A stretch of 64,000 nt of DNA, taken from assembly GCA_949298635.1 (NCBI GenBank), contig CASFXG010000002.1, forward strand, positions 1 through 64,000, read 5' to 3'. Positions 13,111 through 22,712 of the stretch are shown here, in pieces. Each line of letters opens with the position of its first letter. The first letter of the stretch is position 1. The position numbers and the translations under genes were made by a program. The notes under the pieces are model-generated. The model did not search any database. It had not been told where the DNA came from and worked only from the letters and a program-made list of their open reading frames with translations. Source of the DNA: an uncultured Coriobacteriaceae bacterium. Lineage in GTDB: Bacteria > Actinomycetota > Coriobacteriia > Coriobacteriales > Coriobacteriaceae.

Positions 13111-13893
13111 TTAGAAGTCGAGGCGCACGGGAATACCCTGCGCCGCCATGTATTCCTTCACCTCGCGGATGCTGAACGTTCCGAAATGGAACACGCTCGC
13201 CGCGAGCACCGCGTCGGCCTCGCCCTCGATGATCCCCTCGGCGAAATGCTCGAGCGAGCCCACGCCGCCCGACGCGATGACGGGGATGGGAACCGCGCGC
13301 GCCACAGCCCGGGTGAGCGCAAGGTCGAAGCCTTCCTTCGTGCCGTCACGGTCCATGCTCGTGAGCAGGATCTCGCCGGCGCCGCGCCGCGCGGCCTCCT
13401 CCGCCCACGCCACCGCGTCGATACCTGTGGGCGTGCGGCCTCCAGCAACGTAGACTTCCCAGCGATCCGCCCCTGGAGCGCCGGGCTCGCCCACGCGCTT
13501 CGCATCGATGGCGCAGATCACCGCCTGGCTACCGAATGCCGCCGCTGCGGCCGAGATGAGCGAGGGATCCTTCACCGCCGCGGAGTTGAGCGAGACCTTG
13601 TCCGCCCCCGCGGCGACCATCTGCCGCATGCCCGCAAGGTCGCGGAATCCCCCGCCCACGGTATAGGGGATGGCGAGCTCACTCGCCGCGCGCGCCGCCA
13701 TATCGATGGTCGTGCCCCGGTTGTCGCTCGTCGCCGTAATATCGAGGAAGATGACCTCATCGGCGCCGGCGGCGTCATAGGCAGCCGCAAGCTCGACCGG
13801 GTCGCCCGCGTCGCGGAGAGCCACGAAGTTCACGCCCTTCACGACACGGCCGTCCTTTACATCCAAACAGGGAATCACGCGTTTAGTGAGCAT
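13111..13893 (-). CDS. hisF: Imidazole glycerol phosphate synthase subunit HisF
   Basis: 260 residues forming a TIM barrel. HisF uses ammonia delivered by HisH to cyclise PRFAR into IGP and AICAR. Visible are [16 protein letters not shown] at the N-terminus with catalytic Asp11 region, [42 protein letters not shown] with the second catalytic Asp, and [11 protein letters not shown]. It overlaps the end of hisA by 19 bp, and its GGAGG ribosome binding site lies inside hisA. Confidence 0.98.
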
Positions 13894-14639
13894 ACCGCCT
13901 CCCCTCCACTCGCGGCAGCGAGTGCTTCGCGCAGGGTGAAGGCACCCTCGTAGAGCGCGCGGCCGGTAATCGCCCCTTCGATAACGTCTGCGCCGAGTGC
14001 CGCAAGCGCGCGGATGTCATCGAGCGAGGAAATGCCGCCGGATGCAACCACGGGAAAACCGGCGACCTCGGCGATATGCCGGTACGCTTCCGCGTCGATA
14101 CCCGTCTGCATGCCGTCGCGGGCGATATCGGTGAATACCAGGTGCTTGAAACCCAGGCTCGCGAGCTCGCCCACCACGTCGTCGGCATTGCGGGAGACGC
14201 CCTCGCGCCAGCCGTTCACACGCACCTCGCCGTCACGGGCCGCGACGTCGGCGACGAGCAGATCGCCGAATGCGCGTGCAGCCACCTCGGCGAAGCCCGG
14301 CTCGCGTACGAGCACGGTGCCGAGCGAGATGCGACGGCACCCCAGCCCCGCAAGCTCGTCGATGCGTGCGAGCGAGCGCACACCGCCGCCGATATCGACG
14401 GATATGCCTTCCACCTCGCAGATGGCGCGGATGGCCTCGGTGTTCGCCTCACGCGCCGCTTCGTCCTCTTCGAGGGCGGCGGAAAGATCGACCACATGGA
14501 CCCACGTCGCCCCCGCGTCTACAAACGCACGCGCCTGGGCAGCAGGGTCTTCGGAATACACCTTCATGTGGGCACGGTCACCGTGCTCGAGCCGCACGAC
14601 CTGACCTGCTACAAGATCGATGGCGGGAAAGAGAATCAT
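13875..14639 (-). CDS. hisA: ProFAR isomerase HisA
   Basis: 254 residues. HisA is a TIM-barrel enzyme that opens the ribose of ProFAR by an Amadori rearrangement. Signature parts are [56 protein letters not shown] and [11 protein letters not shown]. In many Actinobacteria this enzyme is bifunctional (PriA, also serving as TrpF); dual use cannot be excluded but is not indicated by sequence here. It overlaps hisH by 4 bp (ATGA type). Confidence 0.97.
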
Positions 14640-15385
14640 GCTCCGCCCTCCTTGTTTTGAGCGACAATCGCGACGAAGTTGCGCAGGATCTCGAGGCCAT
14701 GCGCAGATGATTTCTCGGGATGGAACTGGCAGCCGAAGATGTTGCCGTGCCCCACCACGGAAGCGAAATCGCGCGCGTAGAACGTGCGGGCAGCGACGTC
14801 GTCCGCAGCGACATCGCCGTCGAGCGCGAATGAGTGGGTGAAGTAGAGGTTCGCACCCTCAGCGAAGCCTTCAAGCAACGGGCACGCTCTGCCTGCGGGC
14901 GTGAGGTGCACCTGATCCCAGCCAACATGCGGAATCTTCAGCCGCCCGCTCGGCAGCACGGAGCACGAACCGCCGAGCACGCCAAGACCGCGTACCCAGC
15001 GCCGGCCTTCGGCTTCGAAAACCGTAGCGGGTTCAAGGCCGCCACCTCGCGCGTCGGCCGCGGGGCATGCGGGCACGTCTTCGGGAACGCCCTCGTCCCC
15101 GCGTTCGAAGAGGAGCTGAAGCCCCAGGCAGATGCCCAGAAACGGCGTGCCCTCACCGTGCGCGACAGCATCGATGACCGCCTGATCCTGACCCGTTTCA
15201 TGCATAAAGGCAACGGCATCGAAAAATGAACCCACGCCGGGCAGCACGATACCATCCGCCGCGCGGATGGCAGCGGGATCATCCGTTACGAGTACTTCGG
15301 CGCCTGCACGGGCAAGGCCGCGCGCCACGCTCGAGAGGTTCCCTTTGTGATAATCGATAACCGCGATGGTCGGCATGTTCGCCAT
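14636..15385 (-). CDS. hisH: Imidazole glycerol phosphate synthase subunit HisH
   Basis: 249 residues from ATG 15385, which lies 6 nt after GAAAGG; an ATG six nt further upstream is too close to that site. HisH is the glutaminase that supplies ammonia to HisF. Triad elements are visible: GICLGLQLLF (nucleophilic Cys), and CQFHPEKSS (His and Glu). It is somewhat longer than usual (about 200-215) owing to insertions around residues 120-150, where Gly/Ala-rich residues precede the GLGVLGGS segment. Confidence 0.96.
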   Translation of the reverse strand: MANMPTIAVIDYHKGNLSSVARGLARAGAEVLVTDDPAAIRAADGIVLPGVGSFFDAVAFMHETGQDQAVIDAVAHGEGTPFLGICLGLQLLFERGDEGVPEDVPACPAADARGGGLEPATVFEAEGRRWVRGLGVLGGSCSVLPSGRLKIPHVGWDQVHLTPAGRACPLLEGFAEGANLYFTHSFALDGDVAADDVAARTFYARDFASVVGHGNIFGCQFHPEKSSAHGLEILRNFVAIVAQNKEGGA

Positions 15386-15397
15386 GCACATCCTTTC

Positions 15398-15551: not shown

Positions 15552-16247
15552 TCAGAGGCTGCCCTTGGTGGAGGGGATGCCACGCACGCGCGCGTCCTGC
15601 TCGCATGCGAAGCGCATCGCACGGCCAACGGCTTTGAACGCCGCCTCGATGATGTGATGCGAGTTCTCGCCGGCGAGCTCGCGCACGTGGAGCGTCACCC
15701 CGGCGTCGCGCGCGAAGGCGTAGAAGAACTCGACGGCGAGCTCCGTGTCGAAATCGCCCACGCGCGGGGTCGGCAGCGGAAGGTCGCAGTACGCCTGTCC
15801 GCGCCCGGAGATATCCACCGCCGCCATGACGAGCGTTTCATCCATGGGGATCGCAACGTCGGCGAAGCGCTTGATGCGCTGCTTGTCGCCGAGCGCCTGC
15901 GCAAACGCCTGGCCGAGCACGATACCCGTATCCTCGACCGTGTGGTGCGCGTCGACCTCGGTATCGCCGAGCGCCTCGATTTTGAGGTCGAACAGGCCAT
16001 GGCGGGCGAACGCGCTCAGCATGTGGTCGAAGAACGGCACGCCAGTCGTGATGTCACAGGTGCCGGTGCCATCGAGCGAAAGCGAGAGCGTGATATCCGT
16101 CTCGCCCGTCACGCGCTGGACGGTCGCGGTGCGCGCGCTCGTCGAAAACAGCTCATCGAGCCCCGCACTCGTGCGCGCGGCGCTTTCCGTCGCCGTCGCG
16201 GCAGACGTCGCCGCCAGATCGCGCGGCTGCTTCTTGTAGATGGTCAT
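15552..16247 (-). CDS. hisB: Imidazoleglycerol-phosphate dehydratase
   Basis: 231 residues. It dehydrates IGP to imidazole acetol phosphate using Mn. Family motifs are RVTGETDI, GVPFFDHML, DAHHTVEDTGI and ENSHHIIEAAFKA, with both His-rich metal sites intact. Only the dehydratase is present; the bifunctional E. coli form also has an N-terminal histidinol-phosphatase domain, absent here. The N-terminal 55 residues before the core are Thr/Ala-rich and longer than usual. ATG 16247 overlaps the hisC stop by 4 bp. Confidence 0.97.
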   Translation of the reverse strand: MTIYKKQPRDLAATSAATATESAARTSAGLDELFSTSARTATVQRVTGETDITLSLSLDGTGTCDITTGVPFFDHMLSAFARHGLFDLKIEALGDTEVDAHHTVEDTGIVLGQAFAQALGDKQRIKRFADVAIPMDETLVMAAVDISGRGQAYCDLPLPTPRVGDFDTELAVEFFYAFARDAGVTLHVRELAGENSHHIIEAAFKAVGRAMRFACEQDARVRGIPSTKGSL

Positions 16248-17353
16248 GACTCGTCCCCCTTCAGAAGCTCGGCAAGCGCCGAGAGCACCGCGTCGTTCTC
16301 CTCGGGCGTTCCCACGGTGATGCGCAGGCACCCGGCAAGCCCCGGCGCGGAGCTGAAATCACGTACCAGGATAGAATACTCGTCACGCAGGCGCTCACGC
16401 ATCCGCGCGGCGTCCGGCAATCGCACGAGCAGGAAATTGCCCTGCCCACGCCATACACGACCAGCCGCAGAAGTGGCGGAAAGCAGCGCCTCGATGCCGG
16501 CGTGCAGGCGCTCGCGTTCCGAACGAATCTGCTCGACGACCGGCGCATAGGCATCGCGCGAACGTACCGCGACGAGCGCCGCCGCCTGCGTGAGCACGTT
16601 CACCGAGTAAATCTGGCGCACGGCGGAGAACACGTCGATCACGTCGGGTGCGGCAAGCACATACCCACAGCGGATCCCCGCCTCGCCGAACGCCTTGGAA
16701 AGCGTGCGCAGCACGACGAGGTTCGCATGACGCCCCACGAGCGGAACCGCGGAGGTTCCCTCGTCGGCAAACTCGCCATAGGCCTCATCGACCATCACGA
16801 TGCCGGGGCATGCGCGGCAGAGGCCTTCAACGAACTCGAGCGGCAGCACGTCGCCCGTGGGGTTATTCGGCGAGGTCACGATCACAAGATTCGCCGAGTG
16901 CGCAGCTTCTAGCGCCTCCGGGATGTTCGGAGCGAACGTCTCGGGGTCGCGCGAGATGCGCACGACATCCGTCTCGAGCAAGCTCGCGAAGAACGCATAC
17001 TCGCTGAAATCCGGCGGGCAGGTGAGGAGCGTACGACCTCGCCCGCCGAACGCGAGCAACAGGTTGAACAAGAGCTCGTCGCCGCCGTTGCCCACGCATA
17101 CCTGCGCGCGCTCAAGGCCATGGCGTGCCGCAAGCGCATCGCGGAGCTCGTTTGCAAGCGGGTCGGGATAGCGATTGAGGGGCGTGGCAGCGAGCGCGTC
17201 GTCGATCGCGGTGCGCACGCTGTCAGGCAGCGGGTAGGTGTTCTCGTTCGCCGAAAGGTTGATGCGGCACGGCGAGAACATGGGGTCATAGGGTTCGATG
17301 GCGGCGAGGTGCGGCTGCACAAGCGCGCGCATGCGGGCGGAAAGCTCAGCCAT
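16244..17353 (-). CDS. hisC: Histidinol-phosphate aminotransferase
   Basis: 369 residues. A class II PLP aminotransferase that converts imidazole acetol phosphate to histidinol phosphate. It shows RINLSANENTYPLP at the substrate-binding start, GNGGDELLFNL, SPNNPTGD, MVDEAYGEF and the PLP lysine in LRTLSKAFGEAG. The ATG at 17353 overlaps the last 8 nt of hisD (ATGGCTGA); the frame continues upstream without family resemblance, so this start is chosen. Confidence 0.96.
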   Translation of the reverse strand: MAELSARMRALVQPHLAAIEPYDPMFSPCRINLSANENTYPLPDSVRTAIDDALAATPLNRYPDPLANELRDALAARHGLERAQVCVGNGGDELLFNLLLAFGGRGRTLLTCPPDFSEYAFFASLLETDVVRISRDPETFAPNIPEALEAAHSANLVIVTSPNNPTGDVLPLEFVEGLCRACPGIVMVDEAYGEFADEGTSAVPLVGRHANLVVLRTLSKAFGEAGIRCGYVLAAPDVIDVFSAVRQIYSVNVLTQAAALVAVRSRDAYAPVVEQIRSERERLHAGIEALLSATSAAGRVWRGQGNFLLVRLPDAARMRERLRDEYSILVRDFSSAPGLAGCLRITVGTPEENDAVLSALAELLKGDES

Positions 17354-18785
17354 GGCGCTCACCCGCTCCCCCGGAAGCGTCGGCGCCGCAGCCATACTCG
17401 ATAATCCGCGGGTCGTCGTTTGGCCATGCGATGCGTGTGAGGTCTTCGGCTGCAAGCGCGGCGGGATCGAGCGCCTGGACGCCCTGCTCGAGCGCACGGC
17501 GCCTGAGCCCCGCCGAAAGCGCGTGCGCCCACAGACCCTCGCCCTGCGCGAGTTCCTGCGTAGCGGGGGCATCGGCAAGAAGTCCTTCCGGCGTGTAGCA
17601 GATGACGGAAGAGCGCTTTTGGAAATCGCTCACGGACAGCGGGCTCGAGAAGCGGGCCGTCCCGCCCGTGGGCAGCGTATGGTTGGGGCCGGCGACGTAA
17701 TCGCCGAGCGGCTCGGAACTCCACGCGCCCACGAAGATGGCGCCTGCGTTCCTAATGGAGCCGAGCAAGCCGAGCGCGTTCTCGCAGTGGAGCTCCAAGT
17801 GTTCGGGAGCGACGGTGTTCACCGCGTCGACGGCGACGGCGAGATCGGGAGCGACCACGATAACGCCCTCGTTGTCGAGCGAGGCGCGCGTGATCTCTTC
17901 GCGCGGGCTCTGCGAGCAGAACAGCTCGAGCGCCTCCTCCACGCGCCGCGCGAACCCAGCATTGCAGGTGATGAGGTAGCACGCGGCAAGCGGATCGTGC
18001 TCCGCCTGCGCCATGAGGTCCGCCGCGACCACGGCGGGTTCGGCAGAGGCATCCGCGAGCACGCAGACCTCGGAGGGGCCGGCTACCATGTCGATGCCCA
18101 CATCGCCCGAAACGAGCTGCTTGGCAGCGGCGACATAGGCGTTACCCGGGCCGGTGACGACATCGACGGGAGCGATGGTTTCCGTGCCATAGGCGAGCGC
18201 GGCGATCGCCTGCGCGCCACCCACCGTGTAGATCTCGTCCACGCCGGCGACGGCTGCCGCGGCAAGCGTGTAGGGCGAGATGCCGCCCGTGATGGCGTCG
18301 GCACCCTTCTGCGGCGGCGTGACCATGACGATGCGCTCGACACCCGCAACCTTCGCCGGAATAGCGTTCATGAGCACCGTCGAAGGGTACTGCGCGCGCC
18401 CGCCGGGGATGTAGATACCCGCCGCCGCGACGGGTGTGACCTTCACGCCAAGAAGCGTGCCGTCCGCGCGGGTGGTGAACCAAGATTGCTCGAGCTCACG
18501 CTCATGGAACGCGCGAATCTGGCGAGCGGCCTTCTCGAGCGCCGCGCGAAAGGGAGCGTCTACAATGTCGAGCGCGCGTTCGAGCACTTCGCGTGGGAGA
18601 CGCAGGCTGTCGAGCTCGACGCCGTCGAAGCGGGCGCTGTGTTCTCGCAGGGCTGCGTCGCCGCGCTCCCGCACGTCCGCTACGATGTCGCGGGCAGAGG
18701 CGACAATGGCTGACGGCAGCACCCCTTTACGGATGAGCTGCGCCGGCCGAAGCCGCTCGCCGGGCTTGAGAACGATAGTTTTCAT
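17346..18785 (-). CDS. hisD: Histidinol dehydrogenase
   Basis: 479 residues. It oxidises histidinol to histidine in two NAD-dependent steps with zinc. Signature segments are AAGIYIPGGRAQYPSTVLM, VGGAQAIAALAYGTETI, GPGNAYVAAAK, the family pattern IDMVAGPSEVCVLAD, and GPNHTLPTGGTARF. It is about 45 residues longer than the usual 430-435, mostly at the C-terminus (EGLWAHALSAG onward). It is the first gene of the his operon. ATG 18785 follows AGGGGAG; the upstream frame is not HisD-like. Confidence 0.97.
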   Translation of the reverse strand: MKTIVLKPGERLRPAQLIRKGVLPSAIVASARDIVADVRERGDAALREHSARFDGVELDSLRLPREVLERALDIVDAPFRAALEKAARQIRAFHERELEQSWFTTRADGTLLGVKVTPVAAAGIYIPGGRAQYPSTVLMNAIPAKVAGVERIVMVTPPQKGADAITGGISPYTLAAAAVAGVDEIYTVGGAQAIAALAYGTETIAPVDVVTGPGNAYVAAAKQLVSGDVGIDMVAGPSEVCVLADASAEPAVVAADLMAQAEHDPLAACYLITCNAGFARRVEEALELFCSQSPREEITRASLDNEGVIVVAPDLAVAVDAVNTVAPEHLELHCENALGLLGSIRNAGAIFVGAWSSEPLGDYVAGPNHTLPTGGTARFSSPLSVSDFQKRSSVICYTPEGLLADAPATQELAQGEGLWAHALSAGLRRRALEQGVQALDPAALAAEDLTRIAWPNDDPRIIEYGCGADASGGAGERHG

Positions 18786-18895
18786 GAGAGAGGTCTCCCC
18801 TCTTGATCCTACGCATGGCAGGGATGCGAAGCTCCCCTTCAGCCTGAAAGGGCGCACAGCGAAACCGTACGCCCCAAGCAGCAATTCTTGGGTAA

Positions 18896-18924
18896 ACTTT
18901 ATCATGGTAAAGCGTTCCGCACAA
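18896..18924 (-). promoter_or_regulatory. Candidate his operon promoter
   Basis: TTGTGC (18919-18924) and TAAAGT (18896-18901) are spaced 17 bp. A small hairpin (cccaag/cttggg, 18873-18892) would form at the very start of the transcript. I found no T-box and no His-rich leader peptide in the 110-nt leader. Confidence 0.35.
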
Positions 18925-19021: not shown

Positions 19022-19984
19022 ATGACGAAGCTCATCCTCGACCTCGATACGGGCATCGACGATACCCTTGCCCTGCTCTATGCGCTCGCCTCGCCAGACG
19101 CCGAGCTCATCGGCATCACGGGCACCTTCGGCAACGTCTCCATGGAGACGGGCGTGGCGAACGACCTCGCGCTCCTTGAGCTCTTCGGTCGGCCAGACAT
19201 CCCCGTCTTCGCCGGCACCGACCACCCGAGCTGGGCGGACTCGTTTTCCGTCATGCCCGAGAGCGGGCGGTTCCACGGACGAAACGGCACAGGCAACGTC
19301 GAGATCCCTGCTTGTGCCCGCGCGAAGGCGCAAGCGCTCCCGGCCGTCGAGTTCCTCGTCGAAGCCCTGCGCACGAACGGCTCAGATGAGCTCATCGTGG
19401 TGCCCACGGGCGCTTCGACAAACATCGCCGCCGCCCTCGAAGCGGCACCAGATATCGTCGAACGCGCGCGCATCGTCATGATGGGCGGCGCGCTCACGCA
19501 ACCGGGTAACGTCACCCCCTTCGCCGAGGCGAACATCATGCAGGATCCGGAAGCATCGGCCAGGCTCTTTACGGCGGGCGCCCAGATCACTATGGTCGGC
19601 CTCGATGTGACCACGCAGGTGAAGCTCACGCGCGAGCAAGCGGAGGCGTACCGCGCGACCGGCACTGCCACAGGCGCCTTCCTCTCCGACATGCTCGCCT
19701 ACTACACCGATGTGACCGAAGAAGCGCACCCCACGGGCGTTCCCGGCTGCAATCTGCACGACCCGCTCGCAGTGGCCTCGGCGCTCGACCCGTCGCTCAT
19801 AGATACCTTCACCTGCGACATCATGGTCGAGACCGAAGGTGCCGGCCGCGGGCGCACCATCGGCGACCCTGCACGCGTCACCTGCCCGAGTGGCCGCACG
19901 CAGGTCGCACTCGCCGTCGACGCGGAACGTTTCGCCGAGCGCTTCATGGAACGCACGCTCGCCTTCGTGCGCCGCTGCCCGTAG
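19022..19984 (+). CDS. Ribonucleoside hydrolase
   Basis: 320 residues. Members of this family cleave the N-glycosidic bond of nucleosides to free base and ribose. The calcium-binding N-terminus is DLDTGIDD (residues 7-14, usually DTDPGIDD), with PTGAS, MMGGAL, NIMQDPEA and the catalytic-loop NLHDPLAVA near 255. GGGAGG precedes the ATG. The substrate (purine, pyrimidine or both) cannot be told. Ribokinase follows after 50 nt, so the pair would turn nucleosides into ribose-5-phosphate, which fits salvage and PRPP supply to the his genes on either side. Confidence 0.93.
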   Translation: MTKLILDLDTGIDDTLALLYALASPDAELIGITGTFGNVSMETGVANDLALLELFGRPDIPVFAGTDHPSWADSFSVMPESGRFHGRNGTGNVEIPACARAKAQALPAVEFLVEALRTNGSDELIVVPTGASTNIAAALEAAPDIVERARIVMMGGALTQPGNVTPFAEANIMQDPEASARLFTAGAQITMVGLDVTTQVKLTREQAEAYRATGTATGAFLSDMLAYYTDVTEEAHPTGVPGCNLHDPLAVASALDPSLIDTFTCDIMVETEGAGRGRTIGDPARVTCPSGRTQVALAVDAERFAERFMERTLAFVRRCP

Positions 19985-20034: not shown

Positions 20035-20940
20035 ATGCCGCGCGTCATCGTTTTCGGAAGCCTGAACATGGATCTTTCCATCGCCTGCAGTCGCATGCCG
20101 CAAGCCGGTGAGACCATCAGCGGCTCCGGCTTCATCACCAACGCCGGCGGCAAGGGGGCAAACCAAGCGGTCGCCGCCGCGCGCCTGGGAGCGGAAACCT
20201 GCATGATTGGTGCGGTGGGAGCGGATGCCTTCGGCGACGAGCTCCGACGCGGCCTAGAAGCCGCGGGCGTGGACATCGCAGAGCTGGCTACCGTCGAGGA
20301 GACGCCCACCGGTGTCGCCGTCATCATCCGCACCGACGGGGACAACCGGATCGTCCTCGACCCTGGAGCAAACCACGCGCTGCGCATCGCGGATGTTGAA
20401 GCTGCTCTCGAACGGGTAGCGCAGCCGGGCGACATCTTCGTCACGCAGCTCGAATGCGACGTCGAGACAACGTTCTCCGCGCTCGCCGCCGCGCACGAGC
20501 GGCGTCTGTATACCATCTTCAATCCCGCGCCGGCCTGCGAGATTCCACCAGAAACCTGGCACAGCGTCGATCTGCTCTGCCTGAACGAGACGGAATGTGC
20601 CGCGATCTCGGGCATGTTGCCGGTCAACGAGGACACCGCGGCTGCCGCGTTCAAACGCCTCGCTGCGCTGGGTGTGGGGCGTGCGATCATCACGCGCGGC
20701 GAGGACGGCTCGAACGTCTACGACGCCGAGCTATCGGCGCACGTCCCCGCCCTCGCTGTCGAGGCGGTAGATACCACCGCTGCGGGCGATACGTATATCG
20801 GCGCCCTCGCCGCGGCGCTCGTGGCGGAAAAGCCGCTCCTCGATGCGGCGTCGTGGGCATCGGCCGCGGCGGCACTCGCTGTCACGCGCGTGGGCGCCCA
20901 GTGCTCGATTCCTAAGAAATGCGAGGTAGATGCGCTATAG
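20035..20940 (+). CDS. rbsK: Ribokinase
   Basis: 301 residues. A PfkB-family kinase that phosphorylates ribose at O5. It has GSLNMDLS at the start, the NAGGKGANQAVAAARLG signature, GAVGADAFG, and the C-terminal anion hole and base DTTAAGDTYIGALA, in which the usual Gly before Ala-Gly-Asp is Ala. The catalytic Asp is present. It shares a transcript with the nucleoside hydrolase. Its stop codon meets that of hisZG: the two genes converge and overlap by 6 bp. Confidence 0.93.
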   Translation: MPRVIVFGSLNMDLSIACSRMPQAGETISGSGFITNAGGKGANQAVAAARLGAETCMIGAVGADAFGDELRRGLEAAGVDIAELATVEETPTGVAVIIRTDGDNRIVLDPGANHALRIADVEAALERVAQPGDIFVTQLECDVETTFSALAAAHERRLYTIFNPAPACEIPPETWHSVDLLCLNETECAAISGMLPVNEDTAAAAFKRLAALGVGRAIITRGEDGSNVYDAELSAHVPALAVEAVDTTAAGDTYIGALAAALVAEKPLLDAASWASAAAALAVTRVGAQCSIPKKCEVDAL

Positions 20941-22629
20941 CGAGCGTGCCGCATCCAGCCGTGCGGCGAGCGCGTGCAGCCGCGCGTCGAGCCGGGCGCG
21001 GCCGGGGTTCGCGAAGAACCGCGCGGTGCACTCCATGATCTCCCCGGTGATGACGAGGTCGTTCTCGCGGAGCGTCGTGCCCGTCGCCGTGATATCCACA
21101 ATGCGGTCCGTCATGCCCACAATGGGGCCGAGCTCGATGTTGCCGTGGAGCGTCACGATGTCCGCCGTGACGCCACGGCGCTCGTACCAGGCGCGTGCGA
21201 TGCGCGGGTACTTCGTCGCCACGCGAAGCGTTCCGCGGCGGGCATAGGCGCGTTCGGCGAGGCCTTTGCGACCGGCCGGTTCCGCCTCGATAAAGCGGCA
21301 GGCGCCGTAACCCATGTCGATGAGCTCGAGCAGGTTGAGGTTCGCCTCGATGAGGGAGTCGCGACCGCAGAAACCGCAATCCGCACCGCCTGCGGCCACG
21401 AAGGCGGGGGCGTCGGTGGCGCGCACGATCACGAACTCCACGTCGCCCACGAAATCGGCGGCATCGGGCGCGCGCAGGTCGCGTCCGCGCACGATGAGGC
21501 GCCGTCCCGGGTCGACGAGCTCTGAGACATCGAAGCCCGCCGCCGCGAGCGCCTCCACAGTACCGTCCTTGAGCGAACCCTTCGGCACGGCGATGCGAAG
21601 GGCTTCCTCCGCCGCGCGAACGACGGCGTGATCCGCGCTCGCCCCTTGCGCCACCCCACCGGCGTCGAGGGCGTCTTCAAGTCGCTCGAGCGAAAACGCG
21701 AAGCCCGCCGCCGGCACCTGACCTGCTCCCGGAAACGCGCCCTCGAGCGCGGCGTCGTAGCGCCCGCCCGAACCCACGGGATCCGCCATGCCGCTCGCGT
21801 ACGCCTTGAACACGAGCCCGGTATAGTAATCGAACGAATTCATGATTGAGAAGTCGAACGAGAGCGCTCCCTGGGCGCTGTATGCCGCAAAGCGGTCGGC
21901 GAGCGCGCGGAGCTCGTCGGTCTGGGACTCGGCGATACCCGCCGCCGCAAGGAGCGCATCCACGCGGTCAAGCGCGGCGACGCCCCCGTGCAGGCGCGGA
22001 AGCTCGGAAATGGCGCGCTGAAGACTCTCGGCAAGATTCGCCTCGGTGAGCCGGGCGTCGAGGTCCACGAAGTCGTTCGCATGGACGAGCTCGAGCACGT
22101 CGCGGGCGAGCGCCTCGTCCGCCGCACAGGCAAGCAGCTTCATAAACGGACGCACGCTGCCCGCGACGATACGCCACGATGGCAGGTCGAGCGCGCGCAG
22201 GGCATCGATCACGAGCTCGAGCATTTCGGCATCGCCCTCGACGCCGCCGAGGCCGATGAGTTCGAAGCCGAGCTGTGTGAACTGCCGCGCGGCGCCCACG
22301 TTGCGCGGTTGCGAGCGCACGAGTGGCGCCTCGTAGCGCAGGCGCAGCGGAAGCTCGGCATCGCGCAGGCGCGCAGCCACCAACCGAACGATGGGAAGGG
22401 TGTTATCGGAGCGCACCGTAAGCAAACGACCGTCGTCATCGAAGAGTTTGAACGGCGTGTCCACCGCGCGCCCCGCGCCGGCGAGCGCACGCGGATCCTC
22501 GAGCAACGGCGTCTCGACGGGAAGGTAGCCACGGGCTTTGAAGCACGCTCGCACGCCGGCCGCGATCTCCTCGCGCACCTGCGCCTCTTCGGGCAGGATA
22601 TCCCTGAACCCCCACGGTGTCGTGTTCAT
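20935..22629 (-). CDS. hisZG: HisZ-HisG fusion: ATP phosphoribosyltransferase
   Basis: 564 residues in one uninterrupted frame. Residues 1 to about 325 are HisZ, the catalytically inactive histidyl-tRNA synthetase paralogue: WGFRDILPEEA, PLLEDPRAL, TVRSDNTLPIVRL, FTQLGFELIG (117-126), FSIMNSFDYYTGL and VGSGGRYD (285-292). A short linker leads to short-form HisG (about 344-564): LRIAVPKGSL, NIELGPIVGMTDRIVD and the PRPP loop ITATGTTLREND. HisG condenses ATP and PRPP; in other bacteria short HisG needs HisZ as a separate regulatory subunit. Here the two are one chain. It is 2 kb upstream of hisD and not contiguous with the his operon. Confidence 0.95.
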   Translation of the reverse strand: MNTTPWGFRDILPEEAQVREEIAAGVRACFKARGYLPVETPLLEDPRALAGAGRAVDTPFKLFDDDGRLLTVRSDNTLPIVRLVAARLRDAELPLRLRYEAPLVRSQPRNVGAARQFTQLGFELIGLGGVEGDAEMLELVIDALRALDLPSWRIVAGSVRPFMKLLACAADEALARDVLELVHANDFVDLDARLTEANLAESLQRAISELPRLHGGVAALDRVDALLAAAGIAESQTDELRALADRFAAYSAQGALSFDFSIMNSFDYYTGLVFKAYASGMADPVGSGGRYDAALEGAFPGAGQVPAAGFAFSLERLEDALDAGGVAQGASADHAVVRAAEEALRIAVPKGSLKDGTVEALAAAGFDVSELVDPGRRLIVRGRDLRAPDAADFVGDVEFVIVRATDAPAFVAAGGADCGFCGRDSLIEANLNLLELIDMGYGACRFIEAEPAGRKGLAERAYARRGTLRVATKYPRIARAWYERRGVTADIVTLHGNIELGPIVGMTDRIVDITATGTTLRENDLVITGEIMECTARFFANPGRARLDARLHALAARLDAARSL

Positions 22630-22712
22630 GCGCCGTTCCCTTCCGCCAGATGCGCCCGTCCTACATACAGTCGCATTACTTTACCACAGCAAAGTACCAG
22701 CTGCGTAAAGAA

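Follow-up and report, generated by a model that had tools for sequence, protein, structure and literature searches.

In the window analysed here, a 64,000-nucleotide stretch of DNA from an uncultured Coriobacteriaceae bacterium, HisZ and HisG are encoded as one protein by a single gene, hisZG. We put the probability at roughly 0.9 that its product is a single-chain short-form ATP phosphoribosyltransferase, activated by its HisZ half, inhibited by histidine and likely homotetrameric, that arose through a tail-deletion fusion and is probably repressed by HisR. The fusion itself is a real, old and conserved enzyme variant rather than an oddity of one genome. The host is a gut bacterium related to Collinsella and Enorma, and its genome (1.93 Mb) is a fragmented draft of 83 contigs in which hisZG is the sole HisG.

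Domain layout and conserved residues of HisZG

The preliminary description had read HisZ and HisG, with their characteristic motifs, in one 564-codon frame, and we came to the same result. The frame starts with ATG and runs through all 564 codons without a stop, all of the motifs are present, and Pfam and NCBIfam agree on the two domains (Table 1). Pfam places tRNA-synt_His at residues 7–317 (E 3e-69) and HisG at 403–559 (E 9e-40), while NCBIfam places hisZ_biosyn_reg at 9–321 and hisG at 344–539. PF13393 scores 234 bits on the HisZ half against a cut-off of 25, TIGR00070 (HisG) scores 158.7 bits against 75.75, and PF01634 is the sole Pfam match in the 221-residue HisG domain. The top NCBIfam match for the HisZ half is TIGR00443 (hisZ) at 248.7 bits, yet this lies below its cut-off of 271.65, and our search returned no NCBIfam model for a HisZ-HisG fusion; for these two reasons, automatic annotation may name HisG only and miss HisZ. 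The order of HisZ then HisG across a junction of about 20 residues, also part of that description, is borne out by the profile matches and by an AlphaFold2 model with two folded domains and a linker of low confidence. The best PDB match was 3od1, a HisZ, and Foldseek matched the HisZ half to this entry and to L. lactis HisZ (1z7m/1z7n).

Table 1. Features of the window around hisZG.
Feature	Position	Strand	Remarks
hisZG, fused gene, single-chain short-form ATP phosphoribosyltransferase (most likely)	20935..22629	-	Uninterrupted 564-codon frame; profile matches; kept in relatives
HisZ domain, residues 1-322	21664..22629	-	HisRS paralogue; the C-terminal tail of ~99 residues seen in split relatives is absent
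Linker, residues 323-343	21601..21663	-	Poor conservation; low pLDDT at 326-336
HisG (short-form, HisGS) domain, residues 344-564	20938..21600	-	R376 = P. arcticus HisGS Arg56; PRPP loop DITATGTTLREN
HisR (TrpR-family) operator-like 20-bp palindrome TACTTTACCACAGCAAAGTA	22677..22696	.	47 nt upstream of hisZG; consensus from passages of PMC9413887
Second HisR-like palindrome AACTTTATCATGGTAAAGCG	18895..18914	.	~110 nt upstream of hisD
Ribokinase, inserted	20035..20940	+	Convergent; 3' end overlaps hisZG 3' end by 6 bp
Nucleoside hydrolase	19022..19984	+	Inserted between the two his units
hisD	17346..18785	-	Heads the second his unit
hisC	16244..17353	-	Start inferred
hisB	15552..16256	-	Start approximate
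hisH	14636-15391	-	
hisA	13875-14639	-	
hisF	13111-13893	-	

The HisZ half is homologous to histidyl-tRNA synthetase (HisRS) but differs from it in being fused to HisG, in having no anticodon-binding domain and in reading NSFDYYTG where HisRS reads RGLDYYTG. The catalytic Arg is thus replaced with Asn, as expected of a regulatory paralogue without aminoacylation. On the assumption of a one-residue offset between the crystal chain and the numbering in the papers, which underlies both equivalences, R376 of the HisG half aligns with Arg56 of PaHisGS and Ser352 takes the position of its Arg32. R376 and most positions of the PRPP loop do not vary among 26 fused proteins. Arg32 of PaHisGS is positioned with help of HisZ, but its absence here is not due to the fusion, because the split relatives lack it too. 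The HisG half has no C-terminal regulatory domain of the HisGL kind, as the chain ends soon after the catalytic domain.

Both halves are under purifying selection, with dN well below dS in each, while the linker drifts. Such selection on HisZ (dN 0.15–0.25, dS 0.84–1.2) and the invariance of its FDYYTG and GGRYD motifs in the 26 proteins make it very improbable that HisZ is a dead remnant beside a HisG that works alone and without histidine feedback, even though HisZ changes somewhat faster than HisG and the fused proteins of f9, a family outside the order, have lost the HisZ helical insertion as well as the tail. Because of the domain matches, the status of hisZG as sole HisG of the genome, the conserved residues and the selection on both halves, we identify the protein as a short-form ATP phosphoribosyltransferase, and most likely it would have that activity.

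Distribution and origin of the fusion

A scan of bacterial genomes found the fusion in 42/42 related loci of independent genomes (41 cover both halves; L043 is cut by a contig end). These come from Collinsella, Enorma, Slackia, an Atopobiaceae MAG and Limicola, and many are isolates. The preliminary description had called for a check in related genomes, and since all 42 loci are fused, and share the same junction region, the idea that a sequencing, assembly or frameshift artefact joined two separate genes, which the fragmented state of the draft might suggest, is refuted and keeps a negligible probability. The rarity that the same description implied did not hold up. Almost every genus sampled from the order (Coriobacteriaceae, Atopobiaceae, Eggerthellaceae) has the fused form as its normal state, and PMC9413887, from 2022, names hisZ-hisG in one clause as one of the his fusions already known.

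Our class sample comprised 248 genomes, with about one genome per genus fetched for the locus comparison, and 222/248 gave a HisG match. In the Eggerthellaceae-type family (f3) 29/31 genera are fused, one being split and one cut by a contig edge, and every examined genus of the Atopobiaceae-type family (f2) is fused, both family names having been inferred from matching loci. Family f5 and the window's own family are also fused. The exceptions within the order are L063 (f4) and L062 (one f3 genus), both split. In L062 (G221:C16) hisZ and hisG are separate, very divergent and overlapping or abutting, and they are probably a horizontal replacement of the fused gene, acquired elsewhere. Outside the order but within the class, the fused state occurs in families f6, f8 and f9, the other sampled families being split; among the matches listed from 246 genomes across the phylum (~225 outside the class), there was no full-length HisZG outside the class.

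Several side observations were made in these surveys. The 26/248 class genomes with no HisG match suggest repeated loss of histidine synthesis, and several class genomes (e.g., G043, G047, G065 and G099) carry a second HisG-like gene, a frame of ~300 codons, beside short-form hisG. In another class of the phylum, a HisZ match ends a few nt before a HisG match (G389:C13:233554-235115), a near-fusion. A candidate triple fusion in genus g21 (frame of at least 834 aa) was rejected because its extra N-terminus, rich in Arg, was judged by eye to be the upstream gene read out of frame; the Pfam search for this genus covered the trimmed L124 chain only.

In the split relatives the next gene after hisZ is hisG, its HisG domain typically beginning ~35 nt past the hisZ stop codon, and HisZ itself ends in a C-terminal tail with a median of 99 residues. 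Fused proteins are without this tail and have in its place a linker with a median of 19 residues (range 8 to 96). Because this tail is absent from the fused proteins, the fusion probably arose through deletion, the simplest route being that hisZ and hisG lay side by side in an ancestor, which then lost the HisZ tail together with the stop codon and the gap of ~35 nt; the fusion has been retained since. The split L063 has a short HisZ tail of 43 residues and is intermediate-like. A phylogeny built from 97 HisZ-HisG concatenates unites the order's 55 fused members beside L063 and places those of f6, f8 and f9 apart from them. Two state changes are needed on this tree once L062 is omitted; by an AU test, a single clade of fused proteins is not rejected (p 0.25).

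The fused proteins also vary in length. Those of f9 (L109:474-1898 and L110:495-1874), which lack the helical insertion (about residues 158–250 of the window protein), have chains of 460–475 aa, and the fused proteins of L003 and L004 have extra insertions of ~30–45 residues in HisZ and in HisG, the HisG insertion in L004 lying near window residues 383–395. A bolder reading would take single-chain HisZG as a third ATP phosphoribosyltransferase architecture, fixed in the whole order and with more than one origin in the class by HisG replacing the HisZ tail, with f9 also having shed the helical insertion and so changed the allosteric route; we hold this tentatively and consider it rather doubtful as a whole.

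Assembly, feedback and regulation

HisZG would be the first enzyme of histidine synthesis, in which the HisG half would condense ATP and PRPP and HisZ at the N-terminus, related to HisRS but non-catalytic, would activate HisG and bind histidine, giving feedback inhibition. By analogy with the two-chain enzymes, inhibition of HisZG by histidine is expected. Since known short-form complexes are HisZ4HisG4 (PMC10795190, PMC9734150), the fused chain would most likely assemble into a homotetramer that keeps this core. The fusion had been said to fix the stoichiometry of the subunits, and it does fix the ratio, but this ratio is already 1:1 in the known 4:4 complexes (PMC10795190); a putative change in allosteric control by histidine through fusion is speculation. 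Linkers of 8 to 96 residues leave the geometry loosely constrained and HisZ has lost its C-terminal tail, which could favour a fused chain without the HisZ4HisG4 arrangement, such as a dimer with in-cis activation. We regard another oligomer of this kind as unlikely, because the HisZ of L. lactis and T. maritima are also without the C-terminal domain (PMC10795190) and their complexes are hetero-octamers according to the titles of the structure papers cited in PMC9734150. The PDB matches included no solved structure of a fused HisZG chain, and searches of open-access papers found no biochemical study of one.

As previously described, hisZG is split from the rest of the his operon (hisD-hisC-hisB-hisH-hisA-hisF) by the nucleoside hydrolase and ribokinase genes, but this is a local insertion, common to only two related loci (L002 and L003), and a HisR-like operator of its own precedes hisD. 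In L004 another gene is inserted at this position, and in most other loci hisC and hisB lie close after hisZG, with room only for hisD between.

According to PMC9413887, the Coriobacteriales and Eggerthellales have a repressor of the TrpR family, HisR, whose operator is cacTTTAnnnnnnTAAAgtg, and the palindrome upstream of hisZG agrees with this published consensus at 11/14 positions. A score of at least 11 was reached in 77/90 upstream regions of fused genes compared to 15/1800 shuffles, where related loci are not independent. The genome encodes a TrpR-family HisR homologue (G000:C42:7410-7664), and from this and the predicted site we infer that HisR probably represses hisZG transcription. No Rfam match to a T-box or other RNA element was found upstream of hisZG. 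The second palindrome sits between the divergent hisD and nucleoside hydrolase genes and might also regulate the hydrolase; sites of this type recur in the insertion-free relatives L005, L024, L031 and L042.

Relation to known enzymes and significance

Compared to the short-form HisZ-HisGS enzymes of L. lactis (1Z7M/1Z7N), P. arcticus (5M8H) and A. baumannii (8OY0), HisZG has two domains identical in kind, detected by curated profiles, and shares with them the Arg56 equivalent, the PRPP loop and the HisZ core fold; like the L. lactis protein, its HisZ is without the C-terminal domain (PMC10795190). Unlike these two-chain enzymes, whose separate polypeptides define the short form, HisZG is one polypeptide in Z-G order, from one frame that is kept in relatives. 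As in HisGL, a single chain would serve for both catalysis and regulation by histidine, but the regulatory part of HisGL, a hexamer, is a C-terminal domain (PMC10795190), whereas that of HisZG is an N-terminal HisRS-like domain. The fusions in PMC9413887 join the same gene pair, though its available passages hold no fusion map, mechanism, tail loss or biochemistry, and hisZ is not mentioned in PMC1963479, the gene-fusion paper that it cites. HisZG is therefore a conserved, little-studied variant of a known enzyme, and the class-wide mapping, the loss of the tail and the further-shortened variant appear to be new. Among models of allostery between separate proteins, the short-form ATP phosphoribosyltransferase is a standard one. 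Its natural covalent counterpart HisZG, found in Eggerthellaceae and in gut bacteria such as Collinsella, offers a test of whether activation and feedback depend on HisZ associating freely.
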